From NCBI GenBank assembly GCA_016839905.1, contig JAEOTJ010000082.1:1-22207 (forward strand): DNA of 22,207 nucleotides. Reading direction: 5' to 3'. How positions within the stretch are numbered: the first letter of the stretch is position 1; every line of letters begins with the position of its first letter. A model generated the notes under the pieces. It was not told the DNA's origin. It made no database searches and saw nothing but the letters and a program-made list of their open reading frames with translations. Positions 2,112-21,426 of this stretch are shown one piece after another. Both the position numbers and the translations under genes were made by a program. Origin of the DNA: Promethearchaeota archaeon. Lineage in GTDB: Archaea > Asgardarchaeota > Lokiarchaeia > Sigynarchaeales > SOKP01.

Positions 2112-5100
2112 ATGGTATATATAAAATCTCTAATATGTGAAGGATTTAAAAGTTTTAAACATAGAACCAAGATTGATTTTAGTAAGGGGTTCACGAGTAT
2201 CGTTGGAGCTAACGGAAGCGGTAAGTCTAATATTTTAGATGCTTTCGTGTTTGCTTTGGGGGAATTATCTGGAAATAAATTAAGGGTAAATAACATAAAA
2301 GACTTGATCTGTAATGGAGGGACGCATAAAGGAGCACCCTCTAATTGGGCAAGAGTGGATATCGTTTTTGACAATTCCGAAAGAACCATTCCAATTAATT
2401 CTAATGTAGTAAAAATTTCAAGAAAAGTCAATATAAAAAGGCAAGGGAAATATTATATCAATGATAAGGCAACAACACGTCGTGAATTACAAGATATTAT
2501 GGATTTGGCAGGATTAATACCAAATTCATCCAACTTGATTTTACAAGGAGAATTGTTTAGAATTATCAACATGAACAATAATGAACGAAGAGAATTAATA
2601 GAAGATATTTCTGGTATTGCGTCTTATAATGAAAAAAAAGAAGCTGCTGAAAAGGACTTAGTAAAAATAGAAGAAAATATTTCTAGAATAACAATACTTT
2701 TAAATGAACTGTCATTTCAACTGGATTCATTAGAAAAAGAGAGAAATGAAGCTTTAGAATACAATGAATTAGACATTGAGCAAAAAAAAGCGGAAAAAGC
2801 TAGTATTATACTTAAAATCAGAGATTTTGAAAAAAAAATAAAGAAAATAAAAACCAAAAAGCAAGCATTTCAGGACGAGATTGAGGAGATAAATAATAAG
2901 CTTATTGAAAAAAGAGAACATTTAATGCAAACTACCATAAATTTGGATGACATAAATACAGAGATTAAAAAACTACAATCAAGTGAATTAAAAGAACTTA
3001 CGATGAAATTAAATGATTATAAAACAACAATTACAAAAAAAGAAACCCAACAAGAGAGTCATTCGAGAGAAATTGAACGCCTTAAGAAAAACCTAATTAA
3101 AACATTTAGAAAAAAAGAGAGTAATGAAGAAGAGAAAAAAACTATTAAAGAGAAATTAATAGAGAAAAAGCAGAGAAAAAGTGAGGTAAAAATAAAATTA
3201 CTTTCATTAAAAGAAGAACTTTTTCACGGAGAAGCGCAAATAAAAGAATTTGATTCAGAAAATTTAGAATTTCAACAAAAACTTGATTCCATAATAAATA
3301 AAATCGATGAAAAAAATCTTATTAAAAATGATATTAGCTCAGATATAAAAGTTCTTAAAAATAAGTTAGAGAACTCAAATAGAAATTTGAACAATGTCAG
3401 AGTAAAAAATAATAAATTAAACCAGGAAATAATTAAAATAAAGGATAATATTAAGGACCTAATACAAAATGAAAAAAAGCATGAGAATATTTCCAATAAA
3501 GTAATAAACATTGAAGATTTAGAAAAAGAAAAAACAAATATCAATCAGAATTTAAAAAAACTCCAAAAAGGTATTGATGATAAATATACAAAATTAATAT
3601 CAATGAGAAGTAAAATAAAAGCAGTTCAAAAATTTTCCTCAAATAAGGCAATAACGGCAATATTAAAACTCAAAGACAATCCAGAAGTTAAAGAAAAACA
3701 TAAGATCAGAGGCAAAATTTATGATACAGTGGCACAATTAGGTAAGGCAAATCAAGAATATAATACAGCACTGCAAGTCGCAGGTGGAGCAAAGTTTAAT
3801 TATATAATTGTTGATAATCAATCAACTGCTAAACAATGTATAAATTATTTAAAAAAAAACAATATTGGCAGAGCTTCTTTTATTCCTCTGGACAAGATTA
3901 AAGCTAATCCTATCATTCTTAATGTTAAATTAAATGAAAATGTCATCGGTAGGGCTGTAGACTTAATTGAATTCAATCCGGTTTTCACCAAGGCATTTGA
4001 GTTTATTTTTGGAAGGTCAATTGTTGTATCGGATATAAACACGGCAATTGACTTAAACCTAAGTGCTAAAAGAATAACATTAGCCGGAGATGTTATTGAG
4101 TCTTCAAATTTAATGACAGGAGGTAAGAGAAATCAACAAAGTCAAGGAGGTTTTAGAGCAATTGAAGAATTAAAAATTCCCTTGTTAGAAAGAGAATTAG
4201 AAAATCTAAGACAACAGGAATCTGAATATATTAAACAATTGAAACAGATTGAAAAAGAAATTACATCCCATTACAAGAGAAAGATTTCTTTAAACAAAGA
4301 ACTTGGACAAGTAAAACAAAATTTAGCGATTTTTAATGATAAATTAGCAATAAAACAAGAAGAATTAAATGAATTAGAACCTAATATCCAAGAATTTGAA
4401 TCAGAAATAAATGCCTATGAACACCAAATCCAAGAGGAACAACAAAAATTAGATGACATTAGGGAAGTTTTAAACGAATTGAAGGCTAAAGAAAGGGATA
4501 TTAAAGCAAAAATCTCGATGTTAAAAAATAATGATTTTACTAAAAAGATTAATGGCTTAAGAACTCAAATTGATACTCTAGAAAAAGATAAGATGAAAAT
4601 TGAATTAGAGATTACAAAACTTGAGACTCAATTAGAAGAAATAGTGAATAATCGGGAAAAAGAAATTGAAAATGACATTCAAAAAGCTCAAGAAGAGATT
4701 GAAAATTATACCAGCGAACTTAAAACGATTAAAAATGAATTAATAGAATTAAATCAAGCCACTTCAGAATTAGAAGCTGAAGTCATGGAAAAAAATCAGG
4801 TTATTGGACAGTTATATACTAAAAAGGATGAACTTTTACAATCTCAAACAAGCATTAAATTGAAAATAGATGATTTGAAATCAAACATCCATCCAATAAG
4901 CTTGAAAATCAATACTTTAAAAAACAATTTGGATAACTTTGAAACACAAAAAAATATATTAGAACAGACAAGTAAAATAGCAGATGTAGATATAGATAGC
5001 ATTCAAGAATTCCTAAATTATTCCCAAGATAAATTAAACTCTATTATTGAAGAGAGTCTCTCAAAAAAGCATCTATTAGAACCAGTAAACATGAGAGCTA

Positions 5101-5693
5101 TTAAAAAATATGCCAAGATTAAAAGACGATATGATGACCTTATTGAAAAACATGAAATCGTGGTAAATGAAAGGCAAGCAATTTTAGAATTTATTGAAAA
5201 AATTGAATTGGAGAAAAAGAAAACGTTTATGGATGCATTTAATGGCATTAATAAGCATTTTAGGGAGATCTTCTCAAAATTATCCCCTGGAGGGGAAGCA
5301 AAATTAGAATTAGAAAATCCTGAGGAGCCTTTTATGGGGGGAGTAAAAATGCTCGCAAGACCAGGAGGAAAAAAGTGGTGCATAACCCAATCCATGTCCG
5401 GAGGAGAGAAGACTTTAACAGTCGTAGCATTGGTATTAGGGATTCAAATATACTTACCCTCACCATACTACATCTTAGATGAGATTGATGCTTCTTTTGA
5501 TGATTACAATGCAAGTCAAGTCGCTTCCTTGATTAAAGACCTCTCTAAAAAATCTCAGTTCATTCTAATTACCCATAGAGACGTAACCATGACCAAGACC
5601 GATCAATTATTAGGGGTATCAAATGTAAATGGATTGACTTCAATCATTAATCTTAATATTCATGATGCTCTTGAGCAAATTGCTCAGGCTTAA
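2112..5693 (+). CDS. smc: Chromosome segregation ATPase SMC
   Basis: The 1193-aa protein is the full usual length. The N-terminal ATPase half starts MVYIKSLICEGFKSF, with Walker A GANGSGKS at residues 32-39 and a Q-loop in LILQGE. Two long charged coiled coils (about 160-520 and 670-1030) flank a hinge domain at about 520-670, with typical glycines in RGKIYD and AGGAKFNYIIV. The C-terminal half carries SPGGEAKLELENPEEPF, the signature SMSGGEK (1094-1100; most SMCs have Leu where this has Met), Walker B YYILDEID (1119-1126) and a D-loop region. It is expected to form a homodimer that loops and compacts DNA. No ScpA or ScpB gene lies in the window. The last codons contain the dyad TGAGCAAATTGCTCA, and the gene's final 60 or so bases recur at 6741-6810. 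Confidence 0.98.
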   Translation: MVYIKSLICEGFKSFKHRTKIDFSKGFTSIVGANGSGKSNILDAFVFALGELSGNKLRVNNIKDLICNGGTHKGAPSNWARVDIVFDNSERTIPINSNVVKISRKVNIKRQGKYYINDKATTRRELQDIMDLAGLIPNSSNLILQGELFRIINMNNNERRELIEDISGIASYNEKKEAAEKDLVKIEENISRITILLNELSFQLDSLEKERNEALEYNELDIEQKKAEKASIILKIRDFEKKIKKIKTKKQAFQDEIEEINNKLIEKREHLMQTTINLDDINTEIKKLQSSELKELTMKLNDYKTTITKKETQQESHSREIERLKKNLIKTFRKKESNEEEKKTIKEKLIEKKQRKSEVKIKLLSLKEELFHGEAQIKEFDSENLEFQQKLDSIINKIDEKNLIKNDISSDIKVLKNKLENSNRNLNNVRVKNNKLNQEIIKIKDNIKDLIQNEKKHENISNKVINIEDLEKEKTNINQNLKKLQKGIDDKYTKLISMRSKIKAVQKFSSNKAITAILKLKDNPEVKEKHKIRGKIYDTVAQLGKANQEYNTALQVAGGAKFNYIIVDNQSTAKQCINYLKKNNIGRASFIPLDKIKANPIILNVKLNENVIGRAVDLIEFNPVFTKAFEFIFGRSIVVSDINTAIDLNLSAKRITLAGDVIESSNLMTGGKRNQQSQGGFRAIEELKIPLLERELENLRQQESEYIKQLKQIEKEITSHYKRKISLNKELGQVKQNLAIFNDKLAIKQEELNELEPNIQEFESEINAYEHQIQEEQQKLDDIREVLNELKAKERDIKAKISMLKNNDFTKKINGLRTQIDTLEKDKMKIELEITKLETQLEEIVNNREKEIENDIQKAQEEIENYTSELKTIKNELIELNQATSELEAEVMEKNQVIGQLYTKKDELLQSQTSIKLKIDDLKSNIHPISLKINTLKNNLDNFETQKNILEQTSKIADVDIDSIQEFLNYSQDKLNSIIEESLSKKHLLEPVNMRAIKKYAKIKRRYDDLIEKHEIVVNERQAILEFIEKIELEKKKTFMDAFNGINKHFREIFSKLSPGGEAKLELENPEEPFMGGVKMLARPGGKKWCITQSMSGGEKTLTVVALVLGIQIYLPSPYYILDEIDASFDDYNASQVASLIKDLSKKSQFILITHRDVTMTKTDQLLGVSNVNGLTSIINLNIHDALEQIAQA

Positions 5694-6934: not shown

Positions 6935-7369
6935 ATGAATCTAAATAATAAAACCATATATTATACAAAATATCGTTTAATTTTTAAAATTGTTAAAATA
7001 ATAAAGAATATGACAACATTAAGGGAAATAAGTAATATTTCAACGATTAAGCACGTCCTTAAAGAGGTTAAAAATGTTTTAAATGATCTATATAAAGATA
7101 AATTAGTAGACATCATTCTTTACGGTTCCTATGCTCGAGGAGATCAGAAAGATGAATCAGATATAGATTTAGCAATTATAATTGATGATGATATTAGACC
7201 ATTTAGAGAAATAGAACAAATAAATGATGAGATTTATGATATTGATTTGAAATATAGTGTTGTTATTTCCATCCATCCTATTTCAAAAAGGAAGTTTCTA
7301 GTAGAAAATCATTCTTATTTTAAAAATTTAAAAAAAGAGGGAATTTCCCTTTGTCAGATGATAATATAA
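6935..7369 (+). CDS. MNT-type nucleotidyltransferase (antitoxin of a HEPN/MNT pair)
   Basis: The minimal nucleotidyltransferase motif is clear: GSYARGDQKDESDIDLAII (residues 64-82) gives the GSxARG and DxD signature. A further Asp in YDIDLKYSVVI is a candidate third metal ligand. Such proteins pair with HEPN toxins and silence them, in studied cases by adding AMP to a tyrosine near the HEPN active site. The start is uncertain. The first ATG has AGGAGG at 6927-6932, but only two bases away, and the first 25 residues are unlike the family. The ATG at 7011 (MTTLREIS) gives a more usual N-terminus. The gene overlaps the HEPN gene by 19 bases, which suggests translational coupling. Confidence 0.85.
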   Translation: MNLNNKTIYYTKYRLIFKIVKIIKNMTTLREISNISTIKHVLKEVKNVLNDLYKDKLVDIILYGSYARGDQKDESDIDLAIIIDDDIRPFREIEQINDEIYDIDLKYSVVISIHPISKRKFLVENHSYFKNLKKEGISLCQMII

Positions 7370-7743
7370 AACTCCTTGTTGAAAAAGCAAAAAAATATTT
7401 AAAAACCGCGGAATTAGTTTTAAATCATGGAGATTATGATACAGCAGTCTCTAGAATCTATTATTCGATGTTTTATCTTGTAAAAGCTTTGCTCTTAACA
7501 AAAAATATTACTCCGAAAACTCATAGCGGTACAATTAATGCCTTCAGTCAAAATTTTATTAAAAATAAAATTCTCTTAAAAGAAACTGGAAAGCAATTTA
7601 AAAATGCTTTTGATAAAAGATTACAAGGAGATTATGATTTTACTAATTTATTAAATAAGGAAGAAACTGAAGGATTTCTTAAAATTGGAAAAGATTTTAT
7701 TTCTTCACTCTTGGATTATTTAAAGAACAACAATTTTATCTAA
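7351..7743 (+). CDS. HEPN-domain protein (toxin of a HEPN/MNT pair)
   Basis: The 130-aa all-helical protein matches the HEPN pattern: KAKKYLKTAELVL, then YDTAVSRIYYSMFYLVKALLL (about residues 29-49), KTHSG, and a late RLQGDYDF. In active members, the R-x-YY-x-MF-H arrangement supplies the RNase Arg and His (RX6H). Here the His position is Tyr (RIYYSMFY), so catalysis by the usual motif is doubtful, or the Tyr serves as a modification site. The start is TTG, with GAGGG at 7337-7341 nine bases before it. The gene lies in an operon with MNT and ends 15 bases from the convergent VWA gene. Confidence 0.85.
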   Translation: MSDDNIKLLVEKAKKYLKTAELVLNHGDYDTAVSRIYYSMFYLVKALLLTKNITPKTHSGTINAFSQNFIKNKILLKETGKQFKNAFDKRLQGDYDFTNLLNKEETEGFLKIGKDFISSLLDYLKNNNFI

Positions 7744-7758
7744 ATTTTAATTTAATGC

Positions 7759-9498
7759 TTAAGTATAATATTTTTTAATTTCTTCTATTACTAAATTAAT
7801 TAAATCTTTGACGTTTTGAATGGGATAAAAAGATACTTTATCTAATAAATCTTTAAAGCGGCTCTCCGGCACTTTTGAAGAGCCAATGAAAAAACCAACT
7901 ATTTTATGACCTTTATTTGCTAATTCCAGCAAGATTTTCTTGGATTTTCCCCAATTATAAATACCAAAATCAGTAATTACAAATATAAGGGTTTTTTTTT
8001 CCGCCTTATTGCATTGAGATAATATATTCTTTAAGGGGAGCACTGTACCTCCTCCTTGATATCTTAATAATTTCCTTTCAGCTTTTCTATAATTAAATGT
8101 CCAATCACAAACATCTGCTCGATTAGAAAAATTTATCACGCTAAATTTAACACCCTTGCTTGCAGCAAAATGAAGCGCTGCGAAAGATGCGACTAAAGCC
8201 GTGTGATAAGGCCCCCTTCCTCTATTTGTTTTTGCTACGTAGTTCCAACCCATAGAACCAGAAGAATCTAACACGATTAATAAATCAGGGATTTGTTTCT
8301 CTTCCAAGTGCCCAGGTCCTTCAGCGTGAGCCCATTTTCGAGTAGTTATATTAGGGATGATGATTGGACTGGTTAATACTGTTTGAATAAAATCCAATTC
8401 TTCAATTGGATCTCCAATACGCCATACTTCGGGATAAATGGGAACTTGTCCTCCTGGTTTTTCTTCATAAATTCGAATTTCAATGAGATTTTTGGCTAAA
8501 CCTCGATACCAAGTGGCTAAAGGGTTTCCATCTATCAGAAGACCAGCTTGCCCGGCAGGAGCACCAAACTCTGAGTAGGGCGTATCTTTAGCAAATTCCT
8601 CCGCTTTACGTCTTAAATCATCATCATTACTTTCTTTTAGCCTATCACCATTCTTATTTTCTAAAGGATTATCCATCGCTTCTAAAACGTCATCTGGTAC
8701 TTCGATTCTCGTTCTACCATCAGGACTCTTTCTTTTAGATTTTCCTTTATCTAAACCTCCACCCGTACCAATTAAAGCGAAAGTATCATTAATGATACCT
8801 TTTAAGTTATACGCAATTCTTGATACTTTTTGTTCCCAAGTCGTCTCATCTTCAAAATCTTTTTGAATAATTTTAGTTACTCGATTAACCAAGGAACTTA
8901 CATTTGTAAAATCATTTTCTCCTGAAATCTTTACATCCCACATTTTTTCATAGGAATGAAACAAAAACTTTGAGAACTCGCTTAATTTAGTCACATCTTC
9001 AGTTTTAAGATGTTCATAGGTTTTTTTTAATTCCCAAGACATTAGATCCGGATATTTTTCATGTAATTTAGTGTCTATGATTAAGTCCGCAAAGATATTG
9101 ACAATAACAGGAGCAAAATTTTGATTGACATGCCTCATTGCTGCCTTTAGCAATTTAGCATTAATGAGACCATCATAAGGAATAACTTGATAATGGGATA
9201 CCTCGTGCATTGTTATTGCGTAGAAATAATCCAGGTATTCATCATCATTCGTGAAAAGAGGTGTATTGGCTAAATTCATTGTTATTTGCCACTTGTGGTC
9301 CGGATCAATATAAAATCCTTCCTTAAGAGTATAATCAAAGACATAACGGGGGGTGTCAAGGGGCGGAAAGTAGAAATCCCTCATTGTTTTACCCCACGCA
9401 ATTCTCGCTAATTCCTTTAACTTTTTCTCTTTCTCTTTTTCTAATTTATTTTTAATTATCTTTCCTTTTCCAGAGGGTTTTTTCTTGGCTTCAATCAA
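7759..9498 (-). CDS. VWA-domain protein with N-terminal HExxH metallopeptidase-like region
   Basis: The 579-aa protein has a Lys-rich N-terminus (1-35), then a region with MHEVSHY (HExxH, His98-His102). About 30 residues later comes NIFADLIIDTKL, whose Asn and Asp residues are placed like the third-ligand segment of DUF2201-type proteins. A charged linker (245-310) leads to a C-terminal von Willebrand A domain with a complete MIDAS: DSSGS (411-415), Thr485 in GGGT and Asp510 in TDFG. It acts most likely as the metal-binding partner of the MoxR ATPase encoded 19 bases upstream. The start is TTG; the nearest G-rich sequence is about 12 bases away, so translation may depend on coupling. Whether the HExxH site is active is unknown. 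No membrane segment was seen. Confidence 0.85.
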   Translation of the reverse strand: MIEAKKKPSGKGKIIKNKLEKEKEKKLKELARIAWGKTMRDFYFPPLDTPRYVFDYTLKEGFYIDPDHKWQITMNLANTPLFTNDDEYLDYFYAITMHEVSHYQVIPYDGLINAKLLKAAMRHVNQNFAPVIVNIFADLIIDTKLHEKYPDLMSWELKKTYEHLKTEDVTKLSEFSKFLFHSYEKMWDVKISGENDFTNVSSLVNRVTKIIQKDFEDETTWEQKVSRIAYNLKGIINDTFALIGTGGGLDKGKSKRKSPDGRTRIEVPDDVLEAMDNPLENKNGDRLKESNDDDLRRKAEEFAKDTPYSEFGAPAGQAGLLIDGNPLATWYRGLAKNLIEIRIYEEKPGGQVPIYPEVWRIGDPIEELDFIQTVLTSPIIIPNITTRKWAHAEGPGHLEEKQIPDLLIVLDSSGSMGWNYVAKTNRGRGPYHTALVASFAALHFAASKGVKFSVINFSNRADVCDWTFNYRKAERKLLRYQGGGTVLPLKNILSQCNKAEKKTLIFVITDFGIYNWGKSKKILLELANKGHKIVGFFIGSSKVPESRFKDLLDKVSFYPIQNVKDLINLVIEEIKKYYT

Positions 9499-9517
9499 TG
9501 ATTCAAACTGCCCCTTT

Positions 9518-11251
9518 TTATTCCTCTTTTTGCATGTATTCTGATTTATCCAATACTTGTCTTAACCTTAAGGCTTCAGAACCTCCCGAGATTTGGATAT
9601 TTACAAGGGATTCGTCTTTTATTCCCGTAACATTAATCTCAATTAATAAATCTTCAGTACGTATTTGTCGCGTTTGTCTCTTACTGAGGGCTTCTTTTAT
9701 ATTCTCATCCAAGTCTGGGAATTCAGAAGCTATCTCTGCCCATACATTTGATTTATTGAGATATTTAAAAACATAATCAGAAACCGTTTGTTTATAGAGT
9801 TCTCGATTACACCAATTAATTAAATCTGCTCGATTGGCGAGATCTAAATTTTCAACTAATTCATTTCGGATTTCTGCTAATTCTTCGATTTGTCCTTTAT
9901 TTGCAACATTTTTTATTCTTGTAGCTAATGTCGAATAATTCTTATTGTTAATAGTTTTAACAAATGGAATTAAATCATGTTTAACAATTAAATCATTTTT
10001 TCCAAATTTTTTCAATTCTGATAAATCAGTGTCCTTAGGCTCACCATTTCTAAATCTTTCGGCAATCTGATAACAGATTTCACGGTTTTTAAAACGCCTT
10101 TGAACTAATTCCATTAAATTTTTTGAAAAAGCATATTTATTTCCCCAAAAGGGGGCTTTATTTAACTCTCTTTCTTGATAGGCTGCTCTATGCGATATAA
10201 TATAGGGAGTAATTGTATTAATGATATTTATATCAATTTTTTCAAGATCTAATAACCAAGTTAAGGCTTTAGAATATCTTAATAGATCTTTGGCAACTCT
10301 AACGCTAAAAATTGAGTCTATTTTATTACACGTATTTTGAGCAGTATTAAAATGGCAACTTGCACATAATCCAGAAGAAGGTTTAAGATCTTCAGTATTT
10401 CCTTTGTTAACTCTATCACATAATGTAAAATCTCGAATTATCGCATGGATATAATTATTTACATTGTTTTCATAGGGAATTTTATTCACGAAATACCATA
10501 TTTCCATTAATTCATCGATGTTTAGAATTTTTGGTACTTGAATGAGCTCGTCCACTCCACTAAATTTCTCATCCTTACCGGCTAAGATTAATTGTAAATC
10601 ATGACTAGCCGGCATTGAAATCGGAATTGATATCCCAAAGCGATCCAAAAACGGATTTGACAACTCAAATGTACCAATATCTTGAGGATTTATCGTAGCA
10701 TAGAGGCAATACTTGCTAATGGTTTCTACTTGATCATAATATTTAATGACTCCTTCGGCAAGAAGCGATAATAGAATGTCTTGAGCATAAGGAGTTAATC
10801 TATTCACTTCATCAATGATTTTCCAGAATTTTTTGATGAATTTCTTCCATTTTACTTCCTCTTCCCCTTGCATCAGTTTACCCAAGTTTAGGGTCCCTAC
10901 AAGCTTTTCTTCAGTTAATTGAGGATGTCCGCGGATTATTGCTTGCTCAATCTTTTTAAGCTCTTTTCCTGTAAACATCCTCCCTAAATATTTCAGGAGG
11001 GTTGTCTTGCCCCCACCATGCCCACCAATTAAAAGCATTGCAGAGTTTGGAACAATAGCATTTAAAACGCATATAGTTATGATTTCTGGAAGTAATTTTA
11101 TCTCGATTTTGTTTTTCTTTTTGCTATTTTCATCATAATATTTTATTTCCAAATTTTTTGAATGGATGAATAACTGATTTGCTTGGATAAGATTGATAAT
11201 TTTCCACACTTTTTTCCGAAGTCTATTCTCCTCTACATTTTTCGTCGTCAT
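9518..11251 (-). CDS. MoxR-type AAA+ ATPase with Cys4 insertion
   Basis: This is an AAA+ ATPase of the MoxR/RavA style, 577 aa from the chosen start. It shows Walker A GGHGGGKT (about 76-83), Walker B FWKIIDEVNR (Asp147-Glu148), sensor 1 ATINP, and the arginine-finger region NPFLDRFG. Between the core and the lid it carries four cysteines at about 278, 296, 299 and 308 (C-x17-C-x2-C-x8-C), a possible zinc or iron-sulfur site. The C-terminal third is helical and unassigned. MoxR ATPases work with VWA proteins to remodel or load metals or cofactors into target complexes. I chose the ATG at 11251: GAGG sits nine bases before it, and TATAAATA (11306-11313) predicts a transcript start near 11283. 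A TTG at 11281 would add ten residues. Confidence 0.88.
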   Translation of the reverse strand: MTTKNVEENRLRKKVWKIINLIQANQLFIHSKNLEIKYYDENSKKKNKIEIKLLPEIITICVLNAIVPNSAMLLIGGHGGGKTTLLKYLGRMFTGKELKKIEQAIIRGHPQLTEEKLVGTLNLGKLMQGEEEVKWKKFIKKFWKIIDEVNRLTPYAQDILLSLLAEGVIKYYDQVETISKYCLYATINPQDIGTFELSNPFLDRFGISIPISMPASHDLQLILAGKDEKFSGVDELIQVPKILNIDELMEIWYFVNKIPYENNVNNYIHAIIRDFTLCDRVNKGNTEDLKPSSGLCASCHFNTAQNTCNKIDSIFSVRVAKDLLRYSKALTWLLDLEKIDINIINTITPYIISHRAAYQERELNKAPFWGNKYAFSKNLMELVQRRFKNREICYQIAERFRNGEPKDTDLSELKKFGKNDLIVKHDLIPFVKTINNKNYSTLATRIKNVANKGQIEELAEIRNELVENLDLANRADLINWCNRELYKQTVSDYVFKYLNKSNVWAEIASEFPDLDENIKEALSKRQTRQIRTEDLLIEINVTGIKDESLVNIQISGGSEALRLRQVLDKSEYMQKEE

Positions 11252-11305
11252 TATTTTAATCCTCAAAAGATTCTTAGGCAATAAAATAAAGTATTTTCAT
11301 TTATT

Positions 11306-11385: not shown

Positions 11386-11901
11386 TTAAATACTCTTTAT
11401 TTTTACTTGAAAATCTTGATTATCAAATTCTTCATCGATTTCAAGGATTAAAGGAGATTCAAATACTGGATCTATTCTTTTGTATTTTTTTAAAGCTAAA
11501 ATATTTTTATCATGCGTAGCAATTAAGGGGACTTTTAATCTATCCATGGTTGCTAAAATCAAGGTGTCTCGACCCCCGATTCCTAATGGTGAATATTTCT
11601 TCATTTTTTGAATCACATCAACTAATAATATCGCATCAATGTCAATTATTTGACAATTTTCTGTTGAAATTAAAGCTAAAAGTAAATCTTCTATTGTGTT
11701 TTTATCTAGATCATTGCTCAAATCTGCCGCTTTGTACAAATGATGCGCCACTTCTATCGGTATAATCGAACTTAAAATTATATCCTCCTTAAAAAGAATT
11801 CCATCTTTTTCTGTACCATTGAGCCAATTCTTTACATTCTCATGCTCTATAGCATTAATATCCCAATAATAAATCCAAATCTGAGAATCTATCGTAATCA
11901 T
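11386..11901 (-). CDS. vapC: VapC-family PIN-domain toxin
   Basis: The 171-aa PIN-domain protein has the expected acidic metal-binding residues in order: Asp5 in MITIDSQIWIYYW, Glu in IPIEVAHHL, Asp in GGRDTLILATM and Asp in IATHDKNIL. PIN toxins of this type are ribonucleases that cut selected RNAs when not bound by their antitoxin. It is encoded three bases after the AbrB-type antitoxin, in the classic antitoxin-first order. It is slightly longer than a minimal VapC owing to a charged C-terminal tail (last 25 residues or so). Confidence 0.9.
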   Translation of the reverse strand: MITIDSQIWIYYWDINAIEHENVKNWLNGTEKDGILFKEDIILSSIIPIEVAHHLYKAADLSNDLDKNTIEDLLLALISTENCQIIDIDAILLVDVIQKMKKYSPLGIGGRDTLILATMDRLKVPLIATHDKNILALKKYKRIDPVFESPLILEIDEEFDNQDFQVKIKSI

Positions 11902-12810: not shown

Positions 12811-15800
12811 ATGAGATCTTATAGCAAAAATTATTTAGCAAATTGGAGTTCTAAGCTTCTTCTCTTAGGATTTCTATTGGTTTTAATGGTAATTCCATTA
12901 ATGGATAATAATATAAATATTGAAAGCAATAGTAGTTCCCAAACTACAGAAAGGGAGGGTATAATTGAAGTCAAGTCATCGCCCTCTCTCATTTTATCGA
13001 ATGCTACCATAGTTTCGGATGGGTATCTAGGGGGCTATTGGAACAATGATAGCTCCGGTGATCCTTCAGTTGCTGTGGATGGTTCGGGAAACGTGCATGT
13101 TGTATGGGAAGAGGACACTGCTGGTGAATGGGGCACAGATCGGGAGGTAATGTATTGCAATTATACAACAGCTAATGGGTGGTCTAATATCACTGTGGTC
13201 TCTGATGGGTATTCAGGGAGCTATTGGAACGATGGATCCTCCGAAGAACCCAGAGTTGCTGTGGATGGTTCGGGAAACGTGCATGTTGTATGGTCAGATG
13301 GCACTGATGGGGAGTGGGGTACAGATTACGAAATAATGTATTGCAATTATACAGCAGCTAATGGGTGGTCTAATATCACCGTGGTCTCTGATGGTTATTC
13401 GGGGAGCTATTGGAACAATGGATCCTCCGAAGATCCCAGAGTTGCTGTGGATGGTTCGGAAAATGTACATGTTGTATGGACAGATGACACTGAAGGGGAG
13501 TGGGGTACAGATTACGAGATAATGTATTGCAATTATACAGCAGCTAATGGGTGGTCCAATGCCACCGTGATCTCGGATGGTTATTCAGGGAGCTATTGGA
13601 ACGATGGAGAATCCTATAGTTCCTCTATTTTCGTGGATGCCTCGGGAAACGTGCACATTGCATGGGACGATCATACTGATGGTAATTGGGGCACAGATCG
13701 GGAGATAATGTATTGTAATTATACCGCAGCTAATGGGTGGTCTAATGTCACCGTGGTCTCTGATGGATATTCAGGGAGCTATTGGAACAATGATTACTCT
13801 GGTGATCCCTCTATCGCCGTGGATGACTCAGGAAATGTACACCTTACATGGGAGGAGGAAACTAATGGTACATGGGGCGGTGATATAGAAGTAATGTATT
13901 GCAATTATACCGCAGCTTACGGGTGGTCTAATGTCACCGTGGTCTCTGATGGATATTCAGGGAGCTATTGGAACAATGATGACTCCAGGGATCCCTCTCT
14001 TGCCGTGGATGGCTCGGGGAACTTACACCTCGTATGGGAGGATCTCACTAACGGTAAATGGGGCATAGATATAGAGATAATGTATTGCAATTATACTATA
14101 GCTAATGGATGGTCCAATGTCACTGTGGTCTCTGATGGTTATTTAGGAAGCTATTGGAACAATGATGACTCCAGGGATCCTTCTGTTGCCGCGGATAACC
14201 GGGGAAACGCGTATATTGTATGGGAGGATGAGACTAACGGTATATGGGGCATTGATCGGGAGATTATGTATACAAGCTTAGAACTTCCAGAATTCTGGAG
14301 GCTTAATTCTATACATATAGATAATAATTGGTCGTTAACCGCATCTACTTATGGATGGTGTTATGGCGCCGGCACATGGGCAGATCCCTATATAATTGAG
14401 AATGTTATTATTAATTGTGAGGGATCGGGTAGTGGAATCTTTATTGAAAATTCTCAGAACGCCTATTTTACTATTCAGAATTGCACGGTTTATAATTCTG
14501 GCAGTGGTTCAAACGATGCAGGAATTCGTCTAGATAACTCCCGTAATGGTACTTTATATATTAATAACTGCTCAAAAAATGGACGTTTTGGAATCTCTAT
14601 AAATAGCAATAGTCAGAATAACACAATTTCGACAAATATAGTTAATGATAATCAAGATTGGGGAATAAATGTGGATGGTCCATCTAATATAATATTTAAT
14701 AATACTGTTGCTAACTCTCAAACAACTGATCAAGAACACGGAATATACTTTACAGGAAGTTGTATTAATAACTATATCATAAATAATACCATAAGTAATC
14801 ATACTCAAAACGCCATTTATACCTCCGGAGCAAATAGTTTAACTATAGCAAATAATACAATAGATTCAAATAGGGTAGGAATGTATATTGGTTCTTCTAA
14901 TAATTTTGTTCTTTCCGCAAATACATTCACAGATTGTGGATTAGTCTTTTATGGAAATACTTGGGATTTAGATTCACATATAATTTATGACAATAACACT
15001 GTGAACGGAAAACACATTTATTATATGGTTAATCAAAATTATTTAAACACTGCTGATTTTAGCACCCATGGAGCACCAGGTCAGATAGTCCTAGTTAATT
15101 GTAATCATTCACTTATTACCGGATTAAATATTTCTGATACTTCGACGGGTATTCATTTAATTGGTTCTCATAACAATACAGTATCGAATTGTATAATCAC
15201 TTATAATCAAGAGACCGGTATATATATCGAATATAGTGCTAATGATAATACTATTATTAACAACACATTTGATAACAATGGTGATGCTATAGATATTATA
15301 AGATCCGCAAATAGAAATAATATTACAGAAAACATAATAGAAAATAGCACTGGTGCAGGGATTGCTGCCTGGAATTCCTATTCCAATAACTACTTTAATA
15401 ACACAATACGCAATAATGCTGGTTATGGAATTCATATAGAGAGCACTACATCTGATTTCTGGATATACAATAATACAATAAATGATAATGCTGGTATGGG
15501 GATATTTTTCCAAGCTAGTGCAAATAATAGAGTAATAAATAATACTTGTATGGACACAGCAGGCGGATTAGTCCAAAATACGGGTATTTATGTAACCGCT
15601 AGTACAAATATTACAATCTCCCTAAATAAACTTGATAACGCACAAACGGGTGCTTATTTAAACTCAGGGACTAACTGCAATATTACCGATAATACTATGA
15701 TCGGTGGATTTCATGGAGTCCAAATATTTTGGAATAGTCATAATAACACAGTTTATGGTAATACAATATATGGAGGTACTTCTTCTGGAGTGCGTATTGA

Positions 15801-18800
15801 TAATACTTGCAATAACAATACCATTTCAAATAATAATATAACTGATAGTACAACTGGAATTTATATTACGACTAACTGTGATTATAATAATATTACCGGA
15901 AATCTTTTAAATGATCACTCCAACTATGGATTGGATATCCAAGCAGATTGTGATCATATCATAATCACTGGAAATGTTCTAAATTATAATACCCTCGGGG
16001 CTTATCAAGATGCAGGGAGCGATAATTCTTATAAGTGGAATGTTTTCAATTGGAATTTAATTGATCCTTTTACTATAGACGAAAGTGGAGGCGGGGATTT
16101 TACTTGGAATGAAGCATTTTCTGTTTTGGCATGGTTGTCTGGTTCAGGTTCTTGGAACGACCCATACCTAATTGAAAATTTGTTCCTTGATGTAGGCGGA
16201 ACTGGCTGTGGAATTTCAATTAAAAATTCAATAAAATATTTTATTCTCTCAAATTTAACCGTTTACAATACGGGTCTTGGTGCATCGGACGCAGGAATTT
16301 ATTTATTTAGTACATCTAATGGAACTATCATAGATGGTAATTGTTCCGCTAATGGATATTCTGGTATTTCATTAATAAATATTTGTAAAAATAATACAAT
16401 CTCTAATAATGAACTTAATAATCTTGGAGGGATTGGGATTATTCTTAATGGTAATAATGTTAATAACATTATTGAGTATAACAGAGTATTTGGTAACGCT
16501 TATGGAATGTATATTCTTGCTGGAAGTGATAAAAACACTATTTATAATAACACAGTATATAGTAGTGCTAGTTATGGGATATATCTTGATAGTGTCAACA
16601 GAAATAATGCATCAAGAAATTATATAACTACTTCTCCTTATGGATTTTATATTTCGAATAGTGATAACAATAATATCTCGTCTAACATTGTCAATGGTAA
16701 TACCGTAGATGGAATAAGAATAATCAGTGACTCTGATTGGAACACTGTTTTTAATAATACTGCAAATAATAATGGCCAAACCGGAATAAGACTAGAAGTC
16801 AATTGCCATTTTAACGACATCTTAAATAATACAATTAAAGATAATCAAATCAATGGTATACAACTTGATAACAACTGCGATTTTAATAATATTTCATATA
16901 ATAACGCAAGCAATATGGCGGGGACTGAACAAAATCGGGGAATTCACATTAATAATGGATGTGATAATAATACAATACATAATAATGAATTAATTGATAA
17001 TGCTGATTATGGTATATATATAAGCGCCGGTTGTTATGAAAATAATATTACTAGTAATTTAGCTCGAAGCTATGATGGAAGTCAGGATTCTGGCATTTAT
17101 TTACATAATACTTGCGAATACAACAGAATTACAGCAAATACTGTTATTTATAATTCAGACGGAATATATATACATGATAATTGTGATAATAACATCATTA
17201 GCGGGAATACTGTCGATAGCAACATTCTTAGGGGAATACGTATTCGTATTAGTTGCCATAATAACACCATTAGTTTCAATAATGTGAGTAATGAGGGTTC
17301 ACAAAATTATGGGATTAGTATTGGTGTTGATAGTTATTATAATAAAATCTTTGGAAATACAGCATCTAATAATACTAATAGCGGGATATACCTTTTTACT
17401 AATTGCGATTTTACGATAATTGCTAATAATACTTTATACGCTAATCCATACGGTAGTCAATCACGGGGAATTTTCATCCAATTTTCTTCTGAAAATACAA
17501 CTATTTATAATAATACTTGTTATGGTCATACATTTTATGGGATTATAATAGATCAAGGATGCAATTCTAATAATATCTCAAGTAATACTCTATATAATAA
17601 TAGTAATTCTGGATTGTATATGGATGAAACTCTTTATAACAATATAACCAATAATCATATTTATGATAACACTAATTTTGGAATAAATTTAGACTCAACC
17701 AATAATTCGTTGATAATAGGTAATCGCTTACATGGAGCAAATAACGAAATTACTCAAACAAATTGTATAAATAATGTTGAAAATATGAATAGTGTTGAGG
17801 GGGTCTATACATCTCTCTATATAGATGATACGGGTGCGATAATTGGTTCATTAACTTGGGCAGAGGCTGAGCAGTATGACTGGTGTAGCGGTGCTGGTAT
17901 GTGGAGCGATCCATATGTTATTGAGGATATATTAATTAACGCAGGCGGTTCTGGAAGTGGAATTATAATTGAGAATTCTCAAAATGAGTATTTTATCATC
18001 CGAAATTGTACAGTCTATAATTCAGGGACAAATAATGTCGATGCGGGAATAAAAATAGTTAATTCAAATAATGGCCTTTTAGAAGATAATAATTGTTCGA
18101 ATAACGGTTGGAGTGGTATTTATTTAAATAATAATTGTAATAATATTACAATTTCTAACAATTCCGCCGACGAAAATGGGTATGCGGGAATCTATCTATA
18201 TAATAACTGCAAGAATAATACTATCATTGACAACTCCATCAGGGATAATTATTATTATGGAATTTTCTTATATACTGGCTGTGATAATAATACTATTTCA
18301 GGAAACAATGTAACTGATACTGGAGCGGCCGGAACTCAAGAAGAGGGAATCTATTTACATACTTGTGATGATAACATCATATTTGATAATAATGCTAGCA
18401 ATAACATCGATAGAGGGATAAGATTATTTAATCTATGCGTTGGTAATAAAATCTTAGATAATACTGCTCATGATAACGTCGATGGGATATACATTACCCA
18501 AGGATGTGATTCTAATTATATTTCAAATAATAGTCTATATGATAACAGTAATTCAGGATTATTTCTAGATGGATGCAACTCTAATAACATAACCAATAAC
18601 CTCGTTTATGATAATACTAATTACGGAATTTATTTAGACTCATCAAACAATTCGTTAATAATAAGTAATCTCTTACATGGAGCAAATAATGAAATTACCC
18701 AAACAAATTGTCAAAACAATGTTTTATCGATGAATAGTATAAACGGTGTTTTTACGTCTATATTTATAGATAATGAACCCAGTTATGACACAGGCTCAAT

Positions 18801-21426
18801 AACTTGGGCAGAGGCGGCACAATACTATTGGTGTAGTGGTTCAGGTACATGGGCGGATCCATATCTTATTGAGGATATTATAATAAATGGATTAAATCAA
18901 ACTTATGGTCTTCATATTAAAGATTCATCAGTGTATTTTATAATTGATAATTGTACTTTCTATAATGCCGGGCCAACAAGTAGCGATGCTGGAATATATT
19001 TAGACTTTGCGGATAATGGAAAGATTATTAATAGTAATTGCTCTGATAATAATAGACATGGAATTACGATATATAGGTCTAATAATAATACAATTGAGAA
19101 TAATGATTTTAAAGATAATAGAGAAAATGGAATGAATGTATTAAGTAATAGTTATAATAATACCATTATTGGAAATAATGCAAGTAATAGTAATGATAAT
19201 TATTATCAAGATATTGGAATCTTATTAACAAATGGGTGTGCGGATAATAATATTTCAAATAATTTTATCATAAATAATGATGCTGCTGGAATTTATCTAT
19301 TGCAAGATTGCTATAGGAATACCATTTTTAATAATACTGTGAGGGATATGAATGTAGGTATTCAAGATATTGGTATTATTTTATATACACGGTGCAACAA
19401 TAATTCGATCTTATATAATACAATTATGGATAGTTTTTCAAGAGGGATTTATCTCTATCAGAATTGTTCGAATAATTTTATCAAATACAATACAGTAATA
19501 AATTTTCTCTCTACAATTCAGGATAAAGGAATATATCTAAGAGATAATTGTGATAATAATCAAATCATTGGTAATAATGTCTCATTCAATGAATTTCATG
19601 GGATTCATTTGTTTTTAAATTGTGATTTTAATAATATTACTGGCAATAATGCTTCATTTAATACTGAAAATGGGATATATTTAGAAAACTATTGTACTTT
19701 TAATAATATTTTTGGAAATACATTAAATCGCAACACTCAAAATGGAATATTTTTAGATGGAAATTGCGATTCTAACAATATTACGAGTAATACAGCAGCT
19801 TATAACACCGTTAATGGTATTTATTTATTTAAAAACTCGAATAATAATGCAATAATAGGAAACAACGTAAGTTTAAATACTAAAGATGGGATATACATGA
19901 ATAGTAGCCAGGAAAACGATATTATATTGAATACTGCCTTTAATAACGATGGTATGGGAATTCAATTAGAGCTAACGATTAATTCAACATTAATTGATAA
20001 TACTTGTGATAATAATACTTACGGAATATATATAATAAAGAGCAGCAATTTCAACAATATTATTGGAAATACTGCAAATGAAAATGATTGGGTTGGCTTG
20101 TTATTATCACAAAACTGCAATAATAACACTCTCGAAAGCAATACTTTAAATAATAACCTGCAATCGGGGCTATTATTATACATAAATTGTATTAATAATA
20201 CTCTTACTGATAACACAGCAAACGGTAATAAGGAATCTGGGATAAATTTAGTTACTGGATGCAATTTTAATGATATAATTGGGAACACGGCAAACTATAA
20301 CAACGGTTCTGGCATATATTTATGGGATAACAGTAATAACAACACAATTTCGGGAAATACATTAAATGAGAATGATAATTGTGGAATACAACTATTAAAT
20401 TGTCAATATAATAAAATATTAGATAATAGTGAAACTATTGATTCGAATGGAGTAGCGGGAATTCTCTTGGAAAATAGCCATTATAATAGGATTTCAGGAA
20501 ATTCAATAAAGAATAATCCAATTGGTGTTAATTTAAGCTCATCGAATACAAATACCATAACCAACAATATTTTCAGGGATAATGGTGAAAATCACGTAAA
20601 TACTGGTACCGATAATTATATTTCGAATAATGATTATGGTAAAGGAAATGGAGAGTCAAATGGAGAAGAAGAGCCTCCAGAAGAACCACCATCCGATCCA
20701 ATCCTTATAATCATAATTTTTATTGTTATTGGAAGCGCTATTGCTATCGCATCAGGTGGATATGTTGTTACTAAGAAAAAAACAAAAGTTCCACCTAAGA
20801 AAAAGCAGGTAATACCTCCTAAAAAAGATATCAGCAAGAAAGATAAATTACCCACTACAGACGTAAAAATATCTGAGGCAGAAGTGAAACCTTCAGCGAT
20901 TATGCCAAAAGTATCTCCTAAGAAACTTAAAGAACAAAAAGCACATAAAGGGTCTAAAGCAGCTAAAAAGGGAAAAATAGACGATGCTTCTGCGCCACAT
21001 GCAGGATTAACCGAATTAGAAAAGAAAGAAATAGAACAAACCGAATCTGAACTTGCTATAGAAAAGAAACAATATATTTGCGTAGTTCATAAAGGCCCTA
21101 TTGACGCCGATAATATCTACTTATGTCCTAATTGTCATACATTATATTGTACTAAATGTGCAATAACGTTGAAAGAAAAGGGAGAAAAGTGCTGGTCGTG
21201 TGAAAACGAAATTAAAGTTTCCACTACACCTCAAATATCTTCTGAAACGCAACTAAAAATTCAAGATTTAGAAGCAAAATTGGATTCACTTAAAATAACC
21301 GCCAAAAATCTTGATGATACCTACTATACTGGAGCTGTTGAAGAAGAAGAATACGTGAAAATGAAGACATCTTTAGGAGAAAAAATACGTGGGATAATTG
21401 AGGAAATTAAACAGTTAAAAGGTTAA
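12811..21426 (+). CDS. Giant membrane-anchored surface protein: seven-blade propeller, NosD-like beta-helices, cytosolic RING-like zinc finger
   Basis: A 2871-aa protein. Residues 1-35 form a signal or anchor segment. Residues 64-497 are seven 62-residue repeats (SDGYSGSYWNN ... DPSVAVDGSGNVHVVW ... EIMYCNYTAANGWS), fitting a seven-bladed propeller. From about residue 500 to 2610 come right-handed beta-helix (NosD/PbH1) coils, about 22-24 residues each, with patterns such as GIYLxNNCxNNTISGN. Four linker segments with the motif WCxGxGTWxDPYxIE (near residues 515, 1110, 1690 and 2005) divide this into modules. An acidic Pro-rich stalk leads to one membrane helix (about 2631-2653), then a Lys-rich tail, a zinc finger (2757-2797; CxxH-x11-CxxC-x4-CxxC-x10-CxxC) and a final coiled coil. 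NxS/T sites are extremely common. It is likely an adhesin, carbohydrate binder or receptor; the ligand is unknown. Confidence 0.92.
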   Translation: MRSYSKNYLANWSSKLLLLGFLLVLMVIPLMDNNINIESNSSSQTTEREGIIEVKSSPSLILSNATIVSDGYLGGYWNNDSSGDPSVAVDGSGNVHVVWEEDTAGEWGTDREVMYCNYTTANGWSNITVVSDGYSGSYWNDGSSEEPRVAVDGSGNVHVVWSDGTDGEWGTDYEIMYCNYTAANGWSNITVVSDGYSGSYWNNGSSEDPRVAVDGSENVHVVWTDDTEGEWGTDYEIMYCNYTAANGWSNATVISDGYSGSYWNDGESYSSSIFVDASGNVHIAWDDHTDGNWGTDREIMYCNYTAANGWSNVTVVSDGYSGSYWNNDYSGDPSIAVDDSGNVHLTWEEETNGTWGGDIEVMYCNYTAAYGWSNVTVVSDGYSGSYWNNDDSRDPSLAVDGSGNLHLVWEDLTNGKWGIDIEIMYCNYTIANGWSNVTVVSDGYLGSYWNNDDSRDPSVAADNRGNAYIVWEDETNGIWGIDREIMYTSLELPEFWRLNSIHIDNNWSLTASTYGWCYGAGTWADPYIIENVIINCEGSGSGIFIENSQNAYFTIQNCTVYNSGSGSNDAGIRLDNSRNGTLYINNCSKNGRFGISINSNSQNNTISTNIVNDNQDWGINVDGPSNIIFNNTVANSQTTDQEHGIYFTGSCINNYIINNTISNHTQNAIYTSGANSLTIANNTIDSNRVGMYIGSSNNFVLSANTFTDCGLVFYGNTWDLDSHIIYDNNTVNGKHIYYMVNQNYLNTADFSTHGAPGQIVLVNCNHSLITGLNISDTSTGIHLIGSHNNTVSNCIITYNQETGIYIEYSANDNTIINNTFDNNGDAIDIIRSANRNNITENIIENSTGAGIAAWNSYSNNYFNNTIRNNAGYGIHIESTTSDFWIYNNTINDNAGMGIFFQASANNRVINNTCMDTAGGLVQNTGIYVTASTNITISLNKLDNAQTGAYLNSGTNCNITDNTMIGGFHGVQIFWNSHNNTVYGNTIYGGTSSGVRIDNTCNNNTISNNNITDSTTGIYITTNCDYNNITGNLLNDHSNYGLDIQADCDHIIITGNVLNYNTLGAYQDAGSDNSYKWNVFNWNLIDPFTIDESGGGDFTWNEAFSVLAWLSGSGSWNDPYLIENLFLDVGGTGCGISIKNSIKYFILSNLTVYNTGLGASDAGIYLFSTSNGTIIDGNCSANGYSGISLINICKNNTISNNELNNLGGIGIILNGNNVNNIIEYNRVFGNAYGMYILAGSDKNTIYNNTVYSSASYGIYLDSVNRNNASRNYITTSPYGFYISNSDNNNISSNIVNGNTVDGIRIISDSDWNTVFNNTANNNGQTGIRLEVNCHFNDILNNTIKDNQINGIQLDNNCDFNNISYNNASNMAGTEQNRGIHINNGCDNNTIHNNELIDNADYGIYISAGCYENNITSNLARSYDGSQDSGIYLHNTCEYNRITANTVIYNSDGIYIHDNCDNNIISGNTVDSNILRGIRIRISCHNNTISFNNVSNEGSQNYGISIGVDSYYNKIFGNTASNNTNSGIYLFTNCDFTIIANNTLYANPYGSQSRGIFIQFSSENTTIYNNTCYGHTFYGIIIDQGCNSNNISSNTLYNNSNSGLYMDETLYNNITNNHIYDNTNFGINLDSTNNSLIIGNRLHGANNEITQTNCINNVENMNSVEGVYTSLYIDDTGAIIGSLTWAEAEQYDWCSGAGMWSDPYVIEDILINAGGSGSGIIIENSQNEYFIIRNCTVYNSGTNNVDAGIKIVNSNNGLLEDNNCSNNGWSGIYLNNNCNNITISNNSADENGYAGIYLYNNCKNNTIIDNSIRDNYYYGIFLYTGCDNNTISGNNVTDTGAAGTQEEGIYLHTCDDNIIFDNNASNNIDRGIRLFNLCVGNKILDNTAHDNVDGIYITQGCDSNYISNNSLYDNSNSGLFLDGCNSNNITNNLVYDNTNYGIYLDSSNNSLIISNLLHGANNEITQTNCQNNVLSMNSINGVFTSIFIDNEPSYDTGSITWAEAAQYYWCSGSGTWADPYLIEDIIINGLNQTYGLHIKDSSVYFIIDNCTFYNAGPTSSDAGIYLDFADNGKIINSNCSDNNRHGITIYRSNNNTIENNDFKDNRENGMNVLSNSYNNTIIGNNASNSNDNYYQDIGILLTNGCADNNISNNFIINNDAAGIYLLQDCYRNTIFNNTVRDMNVGIQDIGIILYTRCNNNSILYNTIMDSFSRGIYLYQNCSNNFIKYNTVINFLSTIQDKGIYLRDNCDNNQIIGNNVSFNEFHGIHLFLNCDFNNITGNNASFNTENGIYLENYCTFNNIFGNTLNRNTQNGIFLDGNCDSNNITSNTAAYNTVNGIYLFKNSNNNAIIGNNVSLNTKDGIYMNSSQENDIILNTAFNNDGMGIQLELTINSTLIDNTCDNNTYGIYIIKSSNFNNIIGNTANENDWVGLLLSQNCNNNTLESNTLNNNLQSGLLLYINCINNTLTDNTANGNKESGINLVTGCNFNDIIGNTANYNNGSGIYLWDNSNNNTISGNTLNENDNCGIQLLNCQYNKILDNSETIDSNGVAGILLENSHYNRISGNSIKNNPIGVNLSSSNTNTITNNIFRDNGENHVNTGTDNYISNNDYGKGNGESNGEEEPPEEPPSDPILIIIIFIVIGSAIAIASGGYVVTKKKTKVPPKKKQVIPPKKDISKKDKLPTTDVKISEAEVKPSAIMPKVSPKKLKEQKAHKGSKAAKKGKIDDASAPHAGLTELEKKEIEQTESELAIEKKQYICVVHKGPIDADNIYLCPNCHTLYCTKCAITLKEKGEKCWSCENEIKVSTTPQISSETQLKIQDLEAKLDSLKITAKNLDDTYYTGAVEEEEYVKMKTSLGEKIRGIIEEIKQLKG
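13000..14301 (+). repeat. Seven tandem 186-bp repeats encoding propeller blades
   Basis: Unit starts fall at 13000, 13186, 13372, 13558, 13744, 13930 and 14116: exactly 186 bases each time with no insertions or deletions. Units 2 and 3 differ at only about a dozen positions by eye. The seventh unit loses the repeat pattern in its last 12 residues or so. This block is visibly richer in G and C than the beta-helix region that follows. Confidence 0.95.
17571..17760 (+). repeat. Direct repeat inside the beta-helix, copy 1
   Basis: This stretch aligns without gaps to 18516-18705, an offset of 945 bases (315 codons). It encodes the end of one beta-helix module (NSLIIGNRLHGANNEITQTN) just before a WCSGAGMW linker. 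The similarity continues into the linker with a three-base shift. Confidence 0.8.
18516..18705 (+). repeat. Direct repeat inside the beta-helix, copy 2
   Basis: This is the partner of 17571-17760. It encodes NSLIISNLLHGANNEITQTN and then the TWAEAAQYYWCSGSGTW linker. The in-frame 945-base spacing suggests that the third module arose by tandem duplication within the gene. Confidence 0.8.

Follow-up and report, generated by a model that had tools for sequence, protein, structure and literature searches.

Two traits central to eukaryotes are the marking of membrane proteins with ubiquitin and the sorting of these proteins by the endosomal sorting complexes required for transport (ESCRT). Transmembrane RING E3s of eukaryotes, PA-TM-RING and ZNRF3/RNF43 among them, join an exterior domain, one membrane helix and a cytosolic RING. 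Asgard archaea possess ubiquitin and ESCRT parts, according to an excerpt of PMC9192718. Here we analyzed a stretch of 22,207 nucleotides from a Promethearchaeota archaeon, positions 1 to 22,207 of contig JAEOTJ010000082.1 ("the window"), which encodes a giant surface protein with a zinc module on the tail behind its single membrane helix. Judged from its sequence, this tail is on balance probably an E3-like, E2-recruiting part of a ubiquitin-like protein (Ubl) conjugation pathway. Overall, this partly supports an earlier note on this DNA, which had proposed a route from surface contact to inside signaling with a conceivable E3-like role.

The window protein has the same layout as PA-TM-RING and ZNRF3/RNF43, while a Ubl locus and a CW signature are particular to the archaeal family. 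By ligand spacing and profile, the nearest match of the module is the C4C4 RING of TFIIH p44/Ssl1 (PDB 1z60; PF07975; E 3.9e-4), which has the same spacing, CxxC-x11-CxxC-x4-CxxC-x10-CxxC, and RING E3s then follow. The differences from p44 are a His as ligand 2 in the window and, in the module family, mostly membrane hosts and a Trp after ligand 7. RING order is also shared with the Asgard RING proteins of ~690-750 aa found by the ubiquitin operon (loci L112 and L113, genome G001) and with the Caldiarchaeum srfp E3, in the portion of PMC5654768 available to us; from C3 to C8 these read CxxC-x4-HxxC-x10-CxxC, again with the spacing of the module. Seven aligned Asgard RING rows, whose operon context is established for L112, L113 and G001 and not for L095, L105, L110 and L111, have Trp four positions after ligand 6 (C6+4) and Pro after ligand 7, positions held mostly by Leu and Trp in the module. 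Unlike the Asgard RINGs by the ubiquitin operon, the linked copies of the module adjoin E2b, a divergent E2 class described below. The hairpin that ends the window tail is alike in fold and profile to the ESCRT-I Vps23 core, and is present in only some tails.

A zinc module on a putative cytosolic tail

The protein and the parts of its tail are as follows.

12811 to 21426, + strand: surface protein of 2871 aa, with signal-like helix, beta-helix exterior, single membrane helix and very probably cytosolic tail (open reading frame (ORF) translation, Pfam, hydropathy)
20701 to 20757, + strand: membrane helix, residues 2631-2649, with a flank charge of -6 on the N-side and +7 on the C-side over 20 aa each (hydropathy)
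21007 to 21072, + strand: conserved acidic stretch preceding the module, with three E columns that do not vary across a 12-row alignment (predicted helix, middling to low confidence)
21079 to 21201, + strand: zinc module, very likely RING-type, with eight ligands from C2757 to C2797 (motif, alignment, models, fold and profile comparison)
21232 to 21420, + strand: predicted C-terminal two-helix hairpin, like the Vps23 core (steadiness box) and CdvA-type hairpins (model, fold, profile)

Right-handed beta-helix repeats dominate the exterior (Pfam Beta_helix 8.7e-168, NosD 1.9e-158); of a proposed exterior of propeller plus beta-helix, the beta-helix therefore stands, while the propeller drew no match in Pfam, the only resource applied. 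A hydropathy script found two hydrophobic segments, the membrane helix being the last and an N-terminal signal-like stretch the other. The 222-residue tail consists of a basic low-complexity linker, the conserved acidic helix, the zinc module and the terminal hairpin.

Charge asymmetry and sequon distribution place this tail very probably in the cytosol, the inner side to which it had been assigned. The window protein has 100 N-glycosylation sequons before the membrane helix and none after it, where composition shuffling expects 80.7 in the exterior and 0.44 in the tail. Among 66 module proteins, we filtered 24 with an exterior of 350 aa or more and few helices: in 24/24 the flank that follows the helix carries the more positive charge, and their exteriors hold 974 sequons (3.24 per 100 aa), their tails 6 (0.15 per 100 aa). 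Because much of this difference is Asn content, sequon depletion is the weaker evidence and the charge rule the better. In polytopic copies, for which helix counts are unreliable, the C-terminal side is richer in Lys/Arg in 9/15.

The motif CxxH-x11-CxxC-x4-CxxC-x10-CxxC, read earlier after one membrane helix, was confirmed at residues 2757-2797, exactly positions 21079-21201 (C2757-x2-H2760-x11-C-x2-C-x4-C-x2-C-x10-C-x2-C2797), giving eight Cys/His ligands in four pairs and in RING order. Across 99 distinct cores, which first had to fit a pattern permitting x3-5 and x8-12, x4 is kept in 98 and x10 in all 99, and since this spacing is kept across the family, we do not regard the motif as chance. 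Ligand 2 is His in 58/99 cores, as in the window, and Cys in 41/99. The module departs from the canonical RING spacing C-X2-C-X(9-39)-C-X(1-3)-H-X(2-3)-C-X2-C-X(4-48)-C-X2-C (an excerpt of PMC11354881) in having x4, not 2-3, between pairs 2 and 3 (98/99) and, in the window, H at ligand 2. The x4 is also present in the p44 RING.

Predicted fold of the module

Structure prediction and fold comparison of the tail returned mainly RING and U-box matches. The module reached a predicted local distance difference test (pLDDT) score of 94-97 in a model of the 217-aa tail and of 87-97 in a module-only model, which was made separately because hairpins filled the VIA-align listing of the whole tail. With the module-only model, the best 50 Foldseek rows are mainly RING, and the VIA-align list holds mainly RING, U-box and spliceosome chains, the last of which we take for Prp19. 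A 55-row family profile searched against PDB sequences matched the p44 C4C4 RING (3.9e-4), TRIM37 (5.9e-4), RNF4 (7.6e-4), RBBP6 (0.0013) and MDM2 (0.0081), the four best-scoring sequences being RING proteins, and hhalign aligned the module with canonical Asgard RINGs at a probability of 93.5 and a pairwise E of 2.3e-7. A RING-type cytosolic module in the window tail is, on these models and profiles, very likely.

The window module stays below the Pfam cut-offs of C1_4 (18.6 bits vs 28.9) and of the B-box family ANCHR-like_BBOX (12.4 bits vs 27). The latter matches at E<=0.1 in 32/52 tails, best 3.1e-4, with scores, where given, of 12.4 to 16.5 bits, all under the cut-off of 27. Of the two folds proposed in the earlier note, RING- or B-box-like, the fold lists and the profile thus uphold the RING, and the B-box resemblance is weak.

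One module on many membrane proteins

Two protein searches found 12 relatives besides the window protein, one of them labeled Hermodarchaeota, and a two-pattern scan of one genome per species (84,980 species) found 14 loci, all titled Lokiarchaeota, Lokiarchaeia, Sigynarchaeum or Sigynarchaeota. A profile search, which scored at most 24 candidates per genome and so gives lower bounds for each, detected the module in 56/227 Asgard genomes at E<=1e-6, and between 4 and 34 module matches occur in each of seven genomes to which loci led (G003 15, G007 34). This distribution bears out the Asgard lineage suspected for the tail and marks the module as one family in Lokiarchaeum-like and Sigynarchaeum-like archaea, carried mostly by membrane proteins. 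The hosts have exteriors with beta-helix, PKD, CARDB, NPCBM or carboxypeptidase-regulatory domains or are polytopic, and include one MFS-like protein (30.1 bits vs a cut-off of 33.4) and one clear TPR protein. The presence of one module on many different exteriors argues for a common cytosolic role. One further protein of 1082 aa (L006:6965-10210) has no predicted membrane helix, an MIT match of 29.8 bits vs 30, sub-threshold TPR matches and the module at its C-terminus.

Linkage to a Ubl-E1-E2b-JAMM locus

The tail recurs on other Asgard surface proteins, for which the earlier note had proposed a search. Less expected was that genes of the family are linked to Ubl, E1, E2 and JAMM genes, a firmer clue than that note had. 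E2 presence is not diagnostic by itself (166/227 Asgard genomes; 52/56 module genomes). Searching the 56 module genomes gave 117 E2 matches, among which a divergent class of ~190 aa, E2b, was close to module genes in eight locations. In 16/21 E2b loci a module is found within 3 kb, compared with 0/23 canonical-operon E2 loci and 0/20 other E2 loci (Fisher 4e-11), all of these loci coming from module-bearing genomes; a later profile search added three E2b loci, module-free on their short stretches, for a total of 16/24. E2b itself is present in 24/227 Asgard genomes, all 24 within the 56 module genomes (Fisher 2.7e-17). The linkage of E2b and module is to be taken as strong, not exact. Almost every copy linked in this way is polytopic, and one belongs to the window's class.

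The E2b loci (L086:392-6403 and L117-L136) hold a JAMM, a ThiF-type E1, E2b and a Ubl that ends in GG, and are separate from the canonical ubiquitin operon. Motif tagging found JAMM-like and E1-like frames in 21/21 E2b loci and a Ubl-like frame in 17; Ubl and E2b are on opposite strands in 15/15 loci with both tagged, and 8/21 loci have the module gene co-oriented with the Ubl gene and 86-215 bp upstream of it. In L119, the sole fully Pfam-scanned locus, JAB, ThiF and UQ_con exceed their cut-offs (UQ_con also in L086), and the Ubl frame has no Pfam match. The 17 Ubl frames all end in GG plus 0-4 residues, under a picking rule that required G[GA] near the end, and their profile matches polyubiquitin chains and, weakly, single ubiquitins. 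E2b keeps HPN and the catalytic Cys112 in 12/12 aligned rows, and at E<=0.01 it has 179 distinct PDB matches, of which the top 60 are ubiquitin- or NEDD8-conjugating enzymes and their kin; the G156 copy has an in-frame stop.

An upstream gene that begins MIS(K/R)I is present in several E2b loci; the one copy scanned gave weak P-loop and Arf-like matches below cut-off. Short module remnants, probably decayed copies, lie near the Ubl gene at L124:9498-9596 and L129:9120-9278. An excerpt of PMC5654768 mentions archaeal ubiquitin operon Clusters I, II and III (supplementary figure), among which the E2b locus may fall. Another source, PMC10183829, in the part available, traces UFL1 and DDRGK1 to Asgard archaea.

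A general linkage of the module to the canonical ubiquitin operon was rejected: 3/23 loci have matches within 8.5 kb, the nearest being the operon's own RING (17.8-18.1 bits). One true module lies 7.2 kb from a canonical E2 (L113), and the sister locus L112 (G111), outside this count, is alike. The canonical operon of both these similar genomes ends with a proteasome-beta-like gene, and a polytopic module gene is oriented divergently from it (L112:14869-16062, L113:12692-13888), by our estimate an arrangement that chance could explain. The same operons encode a hydrophobic, seemingly polytopic protein with a Cys-rich, RING-like C-terminal end of other spacing (L112:5670-6881 and L113:3883-5055, both on the - strand), the L112 copy of which has no Pfam match at E<=0.01, and at L112:7740-8296 the canonical E2 is split in two short frames, possibly by an assembly error.

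Residues at the putative E2 contacts

The residue before ligand 2 (C1+2), presumably a hydrophobic E2 contact in RING E3s, is V/I in 98/99 cores. Position C6+4, which we take to be Trp or another hydrophobic residue in RING E3s, is L/I/M/V in 99/99 cores and never Trp. The C1-C2 stretch of RING E3s is named in an excerpt of PMC5654768. On the matching face, E2b also departs from its canonical counterpart: 18 E2b sequences carry PYPGG in place of the PNHPP of the canonical L113 E2, so that GG replaces PP ahead of the HPN motif, and the WSP of that E2 gives way to WSR or, in one sequence, WSL. We infer that this joint divergence of module and E2b would fit a dedicated pair. Because canonical E2-activation residues are changed, the module cannot be classed as an ordinary RING E3, while the analogy of a RING that carries a charged E2 to its targets is the reading we find best supported.

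A predicted C-terminal hairpin

The "coiled coil" of the earlier note stands as a helical part, predicted instead as a two-helix hairpin (helices at 154-185 and 191-216 in the 217-aa tail model, protein residues ~2808-2870). It superposes on Vps23-C (2f6m_C) with a root-mean-square deviation of 0.8 over 57 columns (TMt 0.86), and its fold matches CdvA, serine-integrase and MK-D1 OST1 hairpins equally. At the sequence level, its profile aligned with Vps23_core segments from four module-bearing genomes at an hhalign probability of 93.7, and as single sequences 4/4 of these segments score 30-38, whereas 0/150 coiled-coil windows reach 25, the controls being generic coiled coils and shuffles rather than CdvA or integrase hairpins. 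One of the four segments passes the Pfam Vps23_core cut-off, 11/15 genomes gave no segment, and Pfam Vps23_core has no match at E<=1 on the window tail. An ESCRT link of the hairpin is therefore suggestive. As a family trait the hairpin was rejected, its strict motif occurring in 2/66 tails.

Weighing the E3-like reading

From the computed family, RING-type fold, topology, linkage and hairpin similarity, we infer E2b binding, ligase activity, targets and outcome as follows. The single helix of the giant surface protein would hold the module to the inner face of the membrane. In the simplest case, the pathway would be the neighboring one of Ubl, short ThiF-type E1, E2b and JAMM protease: Ubl-charged E2b would dock on the module at the inner face, and E2b-Ubl could then modify the host protein's own tail or its neighbors. 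Where present, the hairpin may dock an ESCRT-I or CdvA-like partner, which would couple the mark to sorting or turnover of the surface protein.

Several observations weigh against the tail as an E3-like part of such a pathway. At the module itself, the Pfam RING cut-off is not reached in the window (zf-C3HC4_3, 20.2 bits vs 27), the residue after ligand 7 is Trp in 98/99 cores and Cys in 1, not Pro, and a linchpin Arg after ligand 8 occurs in 0/99 and Lys in 12/99, with Glu in the window; a canonical RING E3 presumably has Pro after ligand 7 and Arg/Lys as the linchpin. The linkage count of 16/21 includes the loci that raised the idea, because the E2b class was noticed through the eight loci near modules; the 43 control loci were chosen, not randomly drawn, from 94 other E2 matches; and both Fisher values overstate independence, because the genomes that supplied the loci are related. 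Of the 16 linked modules, eleven are frames of 346-599 aa and five (L124, L128, L129, L130, L131) are short or truncated at 58-198 aa, and 32/56 module genomes, including G003 and G007, have no E2b match at 1e-20. In the window, no Ub, E1 or E2 gene was found among the ten ORFs scanned, and in a tree of the 99 cores, built on few columns with many open forks and several rows from one locus, 16/17 E2b-linked rows lie on the mostly polytopic side and one on the window's side. Linkage and co-occurrence with E1, E2 and Ubl genes were found at the level of the family, not for the window's own genome.

That the RING fold has no ligase function and serves as a docking tag, tying varied membrane proteins to one partner such as the cytoskeleton or ESCRT, we consider rather unlikely. 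The best PDB profile match, p44, which we take to be a protein-protein interaction module and not a ligase, has the same spacing save a Cys for the window's His at ligand 2, the changes after ligands 7 and 8 point the same way, and many copies sit on very different hosts. A pure docking tag, however, does not predict the linkage to Ubl-E1-E2b-JAMM or the co-occurrence with E2b, and the hydrophobic contacts C1+2 and C6+4 are conserved.

The tree also allows a functional split between classes, in which the Ubl pathway has its E3s in the polytopic copies, while the CxxH surface copies, including the window's, were co-opted for something else, such as anchoring or assembly. We regard this as unlikely; as it partly coincides with the remaining readings, the probabilities do not sum to one. 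It would account for the concentration of 16/17 linked rows in the part of the tree where polytopic copies predominate, but sequence signatures are common to both classes, and in G112 a 590-aa protein of the window's CxxH class adjoins the Ubl gene (L047/L135), its tail identical to the window tail at 80/145 positions (55%) across conserved helix, module and hairpin. Either class can thus fill the Ubl-adjacent slot.

That the module is not a RING but a B-box, a FYVE-type lipid finger or a pair of separate zinc ribbons is very improbable: ANCHR-like B-box, double zinc ribbon and C1_2 match weakly at E<=0.1 in 32, 18 and 16 of 52 tails, and the PDB profile list holds Midline-1 2ffw, which we take for a B-box, at 0.0036 with PHD and C1 chains lower, but the four top PDB sequences are RINGs, the fold lists are mainly RING/U-box, and the B-box, ribbon and C1 scores given for module stretches lie under their cut-offs. 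FYVE, C1 and zinc ribbon are also not among the best 50 Foldseek rows nor in the VIA-align list, where absence excludes nothing. In L047, separate zinc ribbons outside the module pass Pfam cut-offs.

Other genes of the window

Elsewhere the window encodes an SMC protein with hinge domain (2112-5693), a toxin-antitoxin-like pair of nucleotidyltransferase and HEPN (6935-7743), a VWA-like protein (sub-threshold) adjoining an AAA_5 ATPase (7759-11281) and a PIN domain protein (11386-11901).

Implications

Our literature search, which covers sources other than supplements, preprints and subscription papers, found no description of the membrane RING family or its Ubl linkage. Beyond the window tail, we tentatively consider, as a possibility that falls short of probable, that Lokiarchaeum-like archaea run a membrane-dedicated Ubl system, with up to tens of membrane RINGs per genome, a co-diverged E2, some ESCRT-I-like hairpins, and marking or sorting at the inner membrane face. 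If true, receptor ubiquitination and ESCRT sorting would have a counterpart in prokaryotes. The membrane RING family and its Ubl locus would give concrete candidates for what the archaeal E3 repertoire marks, and where, and the question of an archaeal membrane E3 would become testable with five small proteins.

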